Shown: positions 32,956 through 39,366 of the stretch, piece after piece
Position numbering within the stretch: position 1 is the stretch's first letter
Layout: each line of letters starts with the position of its first letter
DNA from: Gaiellaceae bacterium
GTDB lineage: Bacteria; Actinomycetota; Thermoleophilia; Gaiellales; Gaiellaceae
NCBI GenBank assembly: GCA_021323315.1
Contig: JAJTCQ010000006.1
Location: 26,731 to 90,730, forward strand
Reading direction: 5' to 3'
Length of the DNA stretch: 64,000 nt
Position numbers and translations under genes: made by a program
The notes under the pieces: model-generated
The model's input: only the letters and a program-made list of their open reading frames with translations
Database searches by the model: none
Told to the model about the DNA's origin: nothing

Positions 32956-33074
32956 CGGATTCCGCGCCCTTTCGCGCAGGCCTCGATGTACTTCACGCAC
33001 GAGCTCGTGCTCATGCTCGAGGCGGCACGGTTCGTCGGCGTTTCCTTGCTGGTTACGAGAACCGGCCGGGAACG

Positions 33075-33114
33075 GGTGACGACACAGTCACCGTTTTCGT
33101 GGCCACGAAACCGG
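33075..33114. promoter_or_regulatory. Two abutting palindromes upstream of glnA
   Basis: GGTGAC-gacaca-GTCACC (33075-33092); perfect 16-bp palindrome TTTCGTGGCCACGAAA (33095-33110) within imperfect 24-bp 33091-33114. Confidence 0.65.
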
Positions 33115-33168
33115 CATCGTGATCCGCGAGGCCTGCTAGAGTCGCGCCGTCTTCGTTGAGGCGACGTG

Positions 33169-33200
33169 GCCTCGGACGGGAGCCCCGTCCGGGGCTTTTT
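33169..33200 (+). terminator. Terminator-like attenuator hairpin in the glnA 5' region
   Basis: GCCTCGGACGGG-agc-CCCGTCCGGGGC (12 bp incl. one G-T) + TTTTT; glnA ATG is only 20 nt downstream. Confidence 0.65.
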
Positions 33201-33219
33201 CCATTTCGAGGGAGGTTTC

Positions 33220-34629
33220 ATGGCACGACCGAGGACGCAGGGGAAGAGCACGATGGTGAGGAGCAAGGATCGTGCGACGTCGAGCCTGACGGCGCGGCGT
33301 GCGGTGCTCAAGCGCATCAGGGACGAGGGCGTCGAGCACGTCCTCTTCTGGTTCACGGATCTGGAGGGCCATCTCAAGTCGTTCGCGATCACACCCGCCG
33401 AGATGGAGGAGGCGCTGAACGACGGGATGGGCTTCGACGGGTCGTCGATCACGGGCTTCAACGCGATCGAGGAGTCGGACATGGTGGCGATCCCTGACCC
33501 GGCGAGCTTCCAGCTCATGCCCCGTCCGCTCGACGAGCACGGGCACGCGCTCGGCGCGAACGTCGCGCGAATGATCTGCGACGTCGTCACGCCCGACGGC
33601 TCGCCGTACGAGGGCGATCCCCGCTACGTGCTTCGCAAGGCGCTCGACCGCATGAAGTCGATGGGCTTCGACGCGTTCAACGTCGGCCCCGAGCTCGAGT
33701 ACTTCCTCTTCGAGGACGATCAGGGCACCGAGACGCTCGACGAGGGCGGCTACTTCGCGATGACTGCGCAGGATGCGGCGACCGAGGTCCGCAACGACAC
33801 GATCCACGCGCTCGAAGCGGTCGGCATCCCCATCGAGTACCACCACCACGAGGTCGGCCCCTCGCAGCACGAGATCGATATGCGCTACGCCGACGCGCTC
33901 GCCATGGCCGACTACACGATCACGTACCGGCTGATCGTGAAGGAGGTCGCCGCCTGGCACGGTTACTACGCCACCTTCATGCCGAAGCCGCTCTTCGGCG
34001 AGAACGGGTCGGGCATGCACACGCACATGTCGCTGTTCAAGGGCAACCGCAACCAGTTCTTCGACCGGCGCGACGAGCACCACCTGTCCCCGGCGGCGAA
34101 GAGCTTCATCGCCGGGCTACTCGTGCACGCGCGCGAGATCTCGGCGGTCCTCGCGCAGTGGGTCAACTCCTACAAGCGGCTCGTGCCCGGCTACGAGGCC
34201 CCGGTGTACGTCGCCTGGTCGCAGCGCAACCGGTCGGCGCTGATCCGAATCCCGCTGTACAAGCCGGGCTCGGAGCAGGCAACGCGCGCGGAGATCCGCT
34301 GCCCCGACCCGGCCTGCAACCCGTATCTCGCCTTCGCCGCGCTGCTGCATGCGGGGCTCGAGGGCATCGAGGCAGGCTACGAACTCCCGGACCCGATGGA
34401 GCGGAACCTCTATCGGCTCACCGCCACCGAGCGGCGCGAGCAGGGGATTGTCTCGCTCCCCGAGTCGCTCGGAGAGGCGATCGACGAGCTCGCCGGCTCG
34501 GAGCTGATGAAGAAGACGCTCGGGGAGCACATCTTCCCGCGCTACGTCGAGCTGAAGCGGCGCGAGTGGGACGAATACCGCGTCCAGGTCACGGAATGGG
34601 AGAAGGAGAAGTATCTGGCTGCGCTGTGA
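33220..34629 (+). CDS. glnA: Glutamine synthetase
   Basis: VLFWFTDLEGHLKSFAITP...GMGFDGSSITGFNAIEESDMVAIPD...NGSGMHTHMSLFKG...EQATRAEIRCPDPACNPYLAFAALLHAG. Confidence 0.96.
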   Translation: MARPRTQGKSTMVRSKDRATSSLTARRAVLKRIRDEGVEHVLFWFTDLEGHLKSFAITPAEMEEALNDGMGFDGSSITGFNAIEESDMVAIPDPASFQLMPRPLDEHGHALGANVARMICDVVTPDGSPYEGDPRYVLRKALDRMKSMGFDAFNVGPELEYFLFEDDQGTETLDEGGYFAMTAQDAATEVRNDTIHALEAVGIPIEYHHHEVGPSQHEIDMRYADALAMADYTITYRLIVKEVAAWHGYYATFMPKPLFGENGSGMHTHMSLFKGNRNQFFDRRDEHHLSPAAKSFIAGLLVHAREISAVLAQWVNSYKRLVPGYEAPVYVAWSQRNRSALIRIPLYKPGSEQATRAEIRCPDPACNPYLAFAALLHAGLEGIEAGYELPDPMERNLYRLTATERREQGIVSLPESLGEAIDELAGSELMKKTLGEHIFPRYVELKRREWDEYRVQVTEWEKEKYLAAL

Positions 34630-34913
34630 TGGTTCGGGCTTGAACTCAGCCGGCGAAAGTCGGATGATGCGCGGTGCAGGGTCAGCCGCAAGGCGAGCGG
34701 TGAGCCCTGTATCTGACGGCCGATCGCGGGCTCCCTGGTGTGGAGCCCGTGGTCGTTGTGGGCGGGTGGAAACCTGCGGTTCCCCCCGCCGGCCCCCCTT
34801 CCCTTTCCGTCGAGCCACCTCCGGCCGCGCTTGGCCTCCCGGCCGGCGGAGCCGGGCTCCGGCGATCGACGCCCTGCATCCTTGGTCCTTCCGGACGGCG
34901 ACCGCTAACAGCG

Positions 34914-37339: not shown

Positions 37340-37357
37340 GCATCCGATCCTAGGACA

Positions 37358-38773
37358 ATGAGCCTCGTGGATGCGACCGCGAGGCACCTTCGCCTCCTCA
37401 CCGAGACGATCGAGGCGGTCAACTCGTCGCTCGACCTGCAGGAGGTGCTCGAGCTCGTCGCGAGCAAGGTGGCCGACGCGCTCGGCACCGATGCCTGCTT
37501 CGTCTACCTCTACGACGAGCAGGCGGACGAGCTCGTCCTGCGCGCGACGCATGGCACGCGGGTCGAGGAGCTCACGCGCACGCCGCGCATGCGTCCGGGC
37601 GAGGGGATCACGGGGGTCGCGGCCGCCGAGCGCGCGCCCGTCATGATCGCCGCGCAGGCGCACCTGGACCCGCGCTTCAAGCAGTTCCCGAACCTGCCCG
37701 AGGACGAGTACGAGTCGATCCTGGCGGTCCCCATCGTGACGCGTGCCGACGAGCTCGAGGGCGCGTTGAACGTCCGGACGCGCGAGGCGCGGGCTTTCAC
37801 CGGCGCCGAGATCGAGCTCCTCGTCGCCATCGCCTTGCAGGTTGCGCAGACGATCGAGCATGCGAAGCTCTACGAACGCGCCCAGCGCCGAGTGGCCGAG
37901 CTCGAGGCGCTCGCGCGCATCTCGGAAGCCGTCTCGGAGTCGCTCTACCTCGAGGAGTCACTCGAGGCGATCGTGAAGACGACCATGGAGTCGCTGAACG
38001 CGACCGGGGCGGCGCTCGTGCTCGAGGACGGAAACATCGCGTGGCCGGAGGGCCGCGCCGGCGCGTACAACGTTCGGCTTCCGCTTCGGTGGAAGCGCCG
38101 GCAGATCGGCGAGCTCGTCTGCGACCGCGACACGCCGTTCACGGCCGATGACGAGGCCCTGCTCGAGGCGATCGCGCATCATGCTGCGGTCGCGCTCGAA
38201 CACGGTCGAGCCGTGATGCGGGGTGTGCTCGCCCAAGAGATCCACCACCGCGTGAAGAACAACCTGCAGTCGGTGGCCTCGCTCCTGCGCGTTCAGGCGC
38301 GCGCCGACCACGTCGACGCGCGGAAGTCGCTGAGCGACTCCGTGAACCGGATCCTCGCAATCGCTGCCGTCCACGAGGTGCTGACCGAGCATCGCGAGGA
38401 CGACGTCGATCTCGGCGAGCTCGTCGACCGGCTCCGCGCGATGCTCGTGCAGGGGCTGGCGGCGGGCAAGGACGTGACGGCGGAGCTCGAGCCCATCTCC
38501 CTCGCCGGCCAGCGCGCCACGGCGCTCGCCCTCGTGTTCACGGAGCTCTTCCAGAACGCGCTCGAGCACGGCGGCGACAACGTGTCGATCGCCCTGGCGC
38601 AGCGGAACGGCAACGTCGTGCTCACGATCGCCGACGACGGCGCCGGGTTCGACGGCGCCGCGGCCGGAACAGGGCTGTCGATCGTGCGAGCGCTCGTGCG
38701 CGACGAGCTGCGCGGAGAGCTCGCGCTCGAGAACGCGGGCGGTCTCCGCGTCGAGGTGGTGTTTCCCGCGTGA
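37358..38773 (+). CDS. GAF-domain sensor histidine kinase (HisKA_2/HWE type)
   Basis: Two GAF-like regions; VLAQEIHHRVKNNLQSVASLLRVQA; DDGAGFDGAAAGTGLSIVRALV. Confidence 0.92.
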   Translation: MSLVDATARHLRLLTETIEAVNSSLDLQEVLELVASKVADALGTDACFVYLYDEQADELVLRATHGTRVEELTRTPRMRPGEGITGVAAAERAPVMIAAQAHLDPRFKQFPNLPEDEYESILAVPIVTRADELEGALNVRTREARAFTGAEIELLVAIALQVAQTIEHAKLYERAQRRVAELEALARISEAVSESLYLEESLEAIVKTTMESLNATGAALVLEDGNIAWPEGRAGAYNVRLPLRWKRRQIGELVCDRDTPFTADDEALLEAIAHHAAVALEHGRAVMRGVLAQEIHHRVKNNLQSVASLLRVQARADHVDARKSLSDSVNRILAIAAVHEVLTEHREDDVDLGELVDRLRAMLVQGLAAGKDVTAELEPISLAGQRATALALVFTELFQNALEHGGDNVSIALAQRNGNVVLTIADDGAGFDGAAAGTGLSIVRALVRDELRGELALENAGGLRVEVVFPA

Positions 38774-39366
38774 TGCGGGTACTCATCGCCGAGGACGAGA
38801 CGCTCATCCGGCTCGATCTCAGGGGCCTGCTCGAGGCAGCCGGCCTCGAGGTTTGCGCGGAGGCGCGGGACGGCGAGGAGGCCGTCTGGCTCGCCCGCGA
38901 GACCGAGCCCGACGTCGCACTCCTCGACGTGAAGATGCCACGGCTCGACGGGATCGAGGCGGCCCGGCGCATCCTCGACGAGCGGCCGATCCCGATCGTG
39001 ATGGTGACGGCCTACGGTGAGCGTGAGCTCGTATCGCGAGCGGTCGAGGCAGGCGTCTTCGGCTATCTCGTGAAGCCCTTCCGCGAGACCGATCTCCTGC
39101 CGGCGATCGCCACTGCGACCGCGCGCCACGAGGAACTGCGCGTGCTGCGCGAGGAGGCCGACTCGCTCGCGGAGGCGCTCGCGGCGCGGAAAGCGATCGA
39201 GCGGGCGAAGGGGATCCTCATGACGCGCGAGGGGCTCTCCGAGGACGAGGCGTTCGCACGGCTTCGCAAGGCGAGCCAGATCTCGGGACGGCCGCTGAAG
39301 ATCGTCGCGGAGGCGCTGATCGCAGCCCTCGGCGGCGATGGCGGAGCTTCTCCACCCCGACACTGA
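38770..39366 (+). CDS. Response regulator with ANTAR RNA-binding output domain
   Basis: VLIAEDETLIRLDLRGLLEAAG...DVKMPRLDGIEAARRI; ALAARKAIERAKGILMTREGLSEDEAFARLRKASQISGRPLKIVAEAL. Confidence 0.94.
   Translation: MMRVLIAEDETLIRLDLRGLLEAAGLEVCAEARDGEEAVWLARETEPDVALLDVKMPRLDGIEAARRILDERPIPIVMVTAYGERELVSRAVEAGVFGYLVKPFRETDLLPAIATATARHEELRVLREEADSLAEALAARKAIERAKGILMTREGLSEDEAFARLRKASQISGRPLKIVAEALIAALGGDGGASPPRH

Follow-up and report, generated by a model that had tools for sequence, protein, structure and literature searches.

The closest described systems to the one discussed here are the ANTAR-target RNAs of EutV/eutP (E. faecalis), nasF/NasR, and amiE/AmiR. In these systems a hairpin (P2) with a C-G-closed hexaloop that carries a G at position 4 (G4) excludes the formation of an intrinsic terminator, the protein is a REC-ANTAR response regulator that works with a histidine kinase, and nitrogen genes are found downstream. 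Known ANTAR antitermination requires two hairpins in vivo (PMC3369931, PMC8934654), and in the eut system of E. faecalis the first of these (P1) was required in vivo (PMC3369931). In the work on the EutV structure, the dimer is held to bind a single hexaloop, and P1 is described as a recruitment hairpin that is needed during polymerase movement; single-hexaloop sites may exist where the constraint of polymerase timing is absent (PMC8934654). ANTAR control of nitrogen genes is already known, as it was reported in 2012 that ANTAR targets precede the genes encoding PII, ammonium transporters (amt), and glutamine/glutamate synthases in other bacteria such as Desulfotomaculum (Ramesh 2012, PMC3369931).

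Two further systems from Actinobacteria are relevant. The mycobacterial pair PdtaS-PdtaR (Rv3220c-Rv1626) resembles the pair of proteins described below, in which the regulator is nearest to Rv1626 and the kinase has GAF and HisKA_2 domains, and the PdtaS-PdtaR literature that we found deals with host-stress, iron/redox, and antibiotic responses rather than with glnA attenuation. The main text of a survey of actinobacterial ANTAR RNAs (PMC8164766) describes dual stem-loops with relaxed A1/G4 conservation, similar to leaders found in this study; few of the surveyed RNAs have an overlapping terminator, and no glutamine synthetase is mentioned there as a target.

In this study, the leader of glnA was analysed in a window of 64,000 nucleotides from a Gaiellaceae bacterium (contig C23 of genome G000, which is 53% complete). 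We consider it probable that this leader is a transcription attenuator that is read, through predicted binding and readthrough, by a PdtaR/EutV-like ANTAR protein controlling a nitrogen-assimilation regulon. Like the targets of EutV, NasR, and AmiR, the leader has a C-G-closed hexaloop hairpin with G4 that excludes an intrinsic terminator, it precedes a nitrogen gene, and a REC-ANTAR regulator with a histidine kinase is encoded nearby. Unlike these targets, the glnA leader has one hairpin, position 1 of its loop is mostly G, and its hairpin is separated from the predicted start of the RNA by only some 8 nt.

Comparison Set

Relatives were gathered by similarity to glnA and are mostly Thermoleophilia metagenome genomes; a GlnA protein match was present in 57 of the 61 relatives searched. 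Families are labeled f1 (the family of the window), f2 and f3 (other families, f3 being of the same order), and f16 (elsewhere in the phylum). Covariance models were built from the glnA leaders of the family (R1) and from 21 aligned leaders with two hexaloops (R2).

The glnA Leader

The features of the locus are collected in Table 1.

Table 1. Features of the glnA locus (positions in the window; loop in brackets)
Feature	Position	Strand	Basis	Remarks
Frameshifted methyltransferase gene remnant	32983..33120	+	tblastn vs G007	contains both palindromes; outside the switch
-10 element TAGAGT	33137..33142	+	TAnnnT conservation, leader alignment	TGC before it (extended -10-like)
P2 antiterminator hairpin (predicted)	33158..33173	+	conserved in family glnA leaders	GAGGC[GACGUG]GCCUC
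Intrinsic terminator	33169..33200	+	terminator search, covariation	GCCUCGGACGGG-AGC-CCCGUCCGGGGC + UUUUU; hairpin 33169-33195, U5 33196-33200
glnA SD	about 33210-33215	+		ATG at 33220
glnA	33220..34629	+	Pfam PF00120 E 3.5e-131	glutamine synthetase type I, controlled gene
GAF + HisKA_2 histidine kinase	37352..38773	+	Pfam	predicted ANTAR partner; start codon uncertain
REC-ANTAR response regulator	38770..39366	+	PF03861 E 1.4e-19	predicted antiterminator protein

A sigma-70 consensus scan of the leader found no promoter, and the -10 element was recognized by its conservation instead. TAnnnT ends 10-17 nt upstream of P2 in 33/33 glnA leaders (2.5 expected from shuffles), which confirms the earlier suggestion that TAGAGT could be a real -10 and places the predicted RNA start at about 33149-33151. 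The loop of P2 (33163-33168) has a purine at position 1 and G4 at 33166. The sequence GCCUC (33169-33173) is both the 3' arm of P2 and part of the 5' arm of the terminator, so the two pairings are mutually exclusive. The computed free energy is -9.7 kcal/mol for P2 alone versus -25.2 for the terminator, and the leader fold beats 200 of 200 shuffles (z -3.4). Two terminator-like sites were found versus 0.4 expected, and a strong terminator precedes glnA.

An initial annotation of this DNA had proposed an attenuator in which the 5' arm of the terminator is shared with an alternative hairpin, and this architecture is borne out, as both pairings are kept in the aligned leaders. The strings it reported (GAGGCC at 33128-33133, GGCCTC at 33168-33173, the terminator, its T tract, and the SD and ATG of glnA) were all found in place. 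The upstream strand that it assigned to the pairing was the wrong one, however: GAGGCC is not conserved and, because it lies 5' of a -10 that is conserved in all of these glnA leaders, it is probably not transcribed. Its pairing with GGCCTC was rejected, and the conserved pairing is that of GAGGC (33158-33162) with GCCTC (33169-33173). A leader peptide was also rejected, as the codons around GAGGC show no conserved start. No Rfam covariance model scored above its gathering score at the leader, nor was there anything meaningful at a relaxed threshold, in agreement with the earlier statement that no known glutamine riboswitch is matched.

The family glnA leaders share TAnnnT, a spacing of 10-17 nt, GAGGC[R A Y G N N]GCCTC, and a terminator that runs from the same GCCTC to GGGGC-Un. 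R1 matches 5' of glnA in nearly all family genomes with E values of 1e-9 to 1e-16. A comparison of related glnA leaders had been named as the check on the attenuator proposal, and both conservation and covariation were seen, the latter in the terminator, where 5 of 11 pairs have compensatory changes on both sides and 96.9% of the cells are paired (24 aligned leaders). The stem of P2 does not vary in the family glnA leaders and has no covariation of its own, so the evidence for P2 is sequence conservation: its loop (R-A-Y-G) and stem are strictly conserved across 33 glnA leaders from many genera. Position 1 of the loop is G in 25 (including the window) and A in 8 of these leaders, and A in 33/43 of the other regulon leaders. 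The purine at position 1 and G4 are present in 76/76 classified leaders, a combination that the hairpin scan demanded, although R1 and R2 located the loci independently of that demand. No hexaloop-terminator unit was found in the f3 glnA upstream regions or at the second glutamine synthetase (GS) of f2.

Two glnA-type leaders stand apart. The leader L026 (G014:C43) has the hexaloop GATAAG, in which G4 is lost, and no ANTAR gene was found in its genome, which is 92% complete. The locus L143 (G005:C54:12614-12691) is an extra single-hairpin leader of the glnA type that is not directly followed by a GS gene and may be an orphan copy or an assembly artefact.

The initial annotation also read two palindromes upstream of the leader as a double operator. 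The sequences GGTGAC-GACACA-GTCACC (33075-33092) and the 24-bp palindrome (33091-33114) are indeed there, but both are located in the decayed remnant of a methyltransferase gene. In G007 the intact methyltransferase gene ends just upstream of the glnA leader; its 3' end is matched by the remnant with a tblastn E value of 2.8e-7 for MYFTHELVLMLEAARFVGVSL, after which DDTVTVFVATKP, in a different frame, aligns to DDDFIVFIAKKP of the G007 methyltransferase. The palindromes are conserved in no relative compared, and no conservation among relatives was seen in the region 5' of the glnA -10. Because both palindromes fall within the remnant, they are best explained as coincidences of coding sequence, and on present evidence their role as operators is ruled out. 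A broader version of this idea is that GAGGC-N6-GCCTC and the upstream palindromes together are DNA operators for a GlnR/TetR-like repressor, with the downstream hairpin acting as an ordinary terminator for a transcript that comes from upstream. In its favor, the element is a palindrome near the promoter, and the palindromes further upstream are almost perfect. We nevertheless find this explanation very improbable, given the fate of the upstream palindromes, the fact that GCCTC is common to P2 and the terminator in 24/24 aligned glnA leaders and that the terminator covaries, and the presence elsewhere of a covarying RNA hairpin (P1) inserted between promoter and P2, which is hard to reconcile with an operator.

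Dual-Hexaloop Leaders and the Regulon

R1 also matches second copies of the leader that are located directly 5' of glnA2 (GS-I), GSII, amt, PII, stand-alone receivers, and a few other genes. In the genome of the window, such a leader (G000:C14:9661-9736) precedes an ammonium transporter gene (Amt Pfam E 2.5e-111). Most non-glnA leaders, among them this one before the ammonium transporter gene, have two hexaloop hairpins, P1 followed by P2. Examples of P1 are CCGCC[GCCGAA]GGCGG and GGCGTC[GCTGAA]GACGCC, and examples of P2 outside glnA are AGGC[AGTGAC]GCCT and the loops [ATCGAA], [ACTGAG], and [AATGGA]. Dual hexaloops with G4, the overlap of P2 with the terminator, and the nitrogen genes downstream match the definition of ANTAR targets derived from EutV, NasR, and AmiR (PMC3369931).

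In the R2 alignment, for which P1 of L144 and L153 was chosen by eye and L210 and L156 were omitted, 9 pairs have changes on both sides, 4 of them among the 5 pairs of the P1 stem, which thus covaries strongly. The proportion of paired cells is 93.4% versus 30-46% in slid controls, a value that is favored by cutting the sequences at the hairpins prior to alignment, although the cutting is not the source of the both-side changes. The covariation score of the whole structure was reached by 0/500 shuffles and by no slid control. R2 matches were found in 99/399 genomes of the class, nearly all of which belong to f1 or f2, and in a few others across the phylum. In f16, a set of R2 matches whose two hairpins both have canonical A1/G4 loops precedes a glutamate dehydrogenase gene, which provides independent support that R2 recognizes ANTAR targets. 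The regulon is similar to the Desulfotomaculum-type ANTAR nitrogen regulons found by covariance search (PMC3369931) with its PII, ammonium transporter, and glutamine/glutamate synthase targets. It differs from them in its lineage (Thermoleophilia, Gaiellales-like), in the GSII and stand-alone receiver targets, and in having a single-hexaloop member.

Several leaders have unusual arrangements or neighbors. Tandem pairs of complete dual-hexaloop-terminator units, ~75 nt apart, occur at L261, G235:C78, G242:C141, and G163:C24, and those of L261 (G168) precede an ammonium transporter gene. Receiver proteins are encoded behind the dual leaders L243, L258, L267, and L280; for the three of the four that were tested, an identity as ANTAR regulators was rejected, as they have a receiver domain only. 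These receivers might be phosphate sinks that feed back on the ANTAR regulator. L156 (G018:C80:5578-5645), L251, and L260 precede genes encoding a HAD-type phosphatase, a FAD-dependent oxidoreductase (DAO), and a GNAT acetyltransferase, which are possible non-obvious members of the regulon.

The ANTAR Regulator and Its Predicted Kinase

The genes encoding the ANTAR regulator and its predicted kinase are located ~4.5 kb downstream of glnA, and the stop codon of the kinase gene overlaps the start codon of the regulator gene. The solved proteins closest to the regulator are Rv1626/PdtaR (E 3.5e-48) and EutV (E 1.9e-36). By alignment, the G4-contacting residues R142, K149, and E160 of EutV are retained and Y164 is conservatively replaced by F, while M172 and N173/R175/R177 in the alpha7-alpha8 loop are not retained, the window protein having Q, I, G, and P there (EutV residues from PMC8934654). 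The regulator gene is the sole ANTAR gene found in the 53% of the genome that is available, and the nearly complete genomes G003 and G006 (both 97%) also have a single ANTAR gene each. In 18 tabulated genomes, namely those with glnA and an ANTAR gene on one contig, the ANTAR gene is found 1.9-7.2 kb downstream of glnA on the same strand.

The initial annotation had favored a riboswitch-like effector, and the comparative evidence favors an RNA-binding ANTAR protein instead. A different effector for this attenuator, with P2 serving as a small aptamer of a riboswitch or as the target of a non-ANTAR protein, is in our judgment rather improbable. This possibility draws on the single hairpin at glnA with its mostly G position 1, on the fact that the binding of P2 by the ANTAR protein is itself predicted, and on the f3 genomes, in which ANTAR genes are present yet no such leader is found 5' of glnA. 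It is opposed by the lack of an Rfam family that matches the leader, by the dual-hexaloop ANTAR geometry of the other regulon leaders, and by the synteny of the ANTAR gene with glnA. In addition, the 16-nt hairpin is below the size of known riboswitch aptamers.

Between glnA and the kinase gene, the window also contains a conserved, structured intergenic RNA candidate (34638-34764, + strand). It carries a promoter-like TTGnnn/TAnnnT of its own, and it has one hairpin at the 5' side and another, CUGACGGCCGAnnGCG...CGUGGUCGUU, that is near-invariant at the 3' side. With a model of this RNA, matches were obtained beside glnA in ~20 relatives, in either orientation with respect to glnA, and an Rfam search with the candidate gave no match. 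EutX/Rli55 are sRNAs linked to ANTAR circuits, and by analogy the candidate might be an sRNA that is perhaps tied to the ANTAR circuit described here.

Absence of P1 at glnA

P1 was defined as a hexaloop hairpin with a stem of at least 4 pairs, a C-G closing pair, a purine at position 1, G4, and a linker of at most 16 nt. By this rule, P1 was found in 0/33 family glnA leaders, including that of the window, and in 39/43 leaders of glnA2, GSII, amt, PII, and receivers, counts from which 9 leaders classed '?' were omitted; shuffles gave <1 per class. The difference has a Fisher value of 1.8e-17 when kinship among the leaders is ignored. A -10 spacing of 10-17 nt before P2 occurs in 0/43 non-glnA leaders, where TAnnnT is mostly 27-40 nt before P2. 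The promoter of glnA thus occupies the place of P1, so that P1 cannot be transcribed from it. The glnA leader of f2 is a dual hexaloop, which suggests that loss of P1 in f1 is the simpler history.

The lack of P1 at glnA is in conflict with the current model, which holds P1 to be obligatory. One explanation is degeneration of an ANTAR target: with P1 lost, the glnA leader would be left as a constitutive, partial terminator and would fix glnA at a basal, unregulated level. We regard this as unlikely. The requirement for P1 in the eut system of E. faecalis (PMC3369931) speaks for it, and the strictness of the P2 loop and stem in the 33 glnA leaders, which would be needless for a constitutive terminator, speaks against it, as does, with a single data point, the loss of G4 in G014, a genome without an identified ANTAR gene. 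The alternative, for which we judge the chances to be about even, is that one 5'-proximal hexaloop suffices for regulated ANTAR antitermination in vivo. The family f1 would then have lost P1 at glnA alone, with every other target class keeping it, giving glnA a different threshold or different kinetics, and the rule that P1 is obligatory would not be general.

Proposed Mechanism

The following scheme for ANTAR control of glnA builds on what was observed, namely the conservation and covariation, the mutual exclusion of the pairings, the membership of the regulon, the synteny with the ANTAR gene, and the absence of P1. The glnA RNA would begin near 33150 and, by default, the leader would fold into the terminator and RNA polymerase would stop at the U tract. 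Given the large difference in stability in favor of the terminator, P2 would need a stabilizer to persist; as the terminator wins without one, off by default and on with the ANTAR protein is the natural reading of the direction of control. The GAF-HisKA_2 kinase is predicted to phosphorylate the ANTAR response regulator, presumably upon nitrogen limitation, and the phosphorylated regulator would bind the P2 hexaloop. The bound regulator would keep GAGGC/GCCUC paired and block the closing of the lower stem of the terminator, allowing glnA to be transcribed. The same regulator would govern glnA2, GSII, amt, and PII via the two-hexaloop leaders.

Conclusions

As far as the openly searchable literature shows, what is new is the lineage, how far the regulon extends, and the glnA leader with its single hexaloop. 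In this deep lineage of Actinobacteria, most of which is uncultured, nitrogen assimilation is probably controlled via ANTAR antitermination of a regulon. The glnA leaders are a natural experiment on why ANTAR targets carry two hairpins, as they would be single-hexaloop cis-antiterminators that operate under the time constraint of the polymerase beside dual-hexaloop leaders for the same protein. The glnA leader would be an exception to the current view of the need for P1 in vivo (PMC3369931) and of single-hexaloop sites (PMC8934654).
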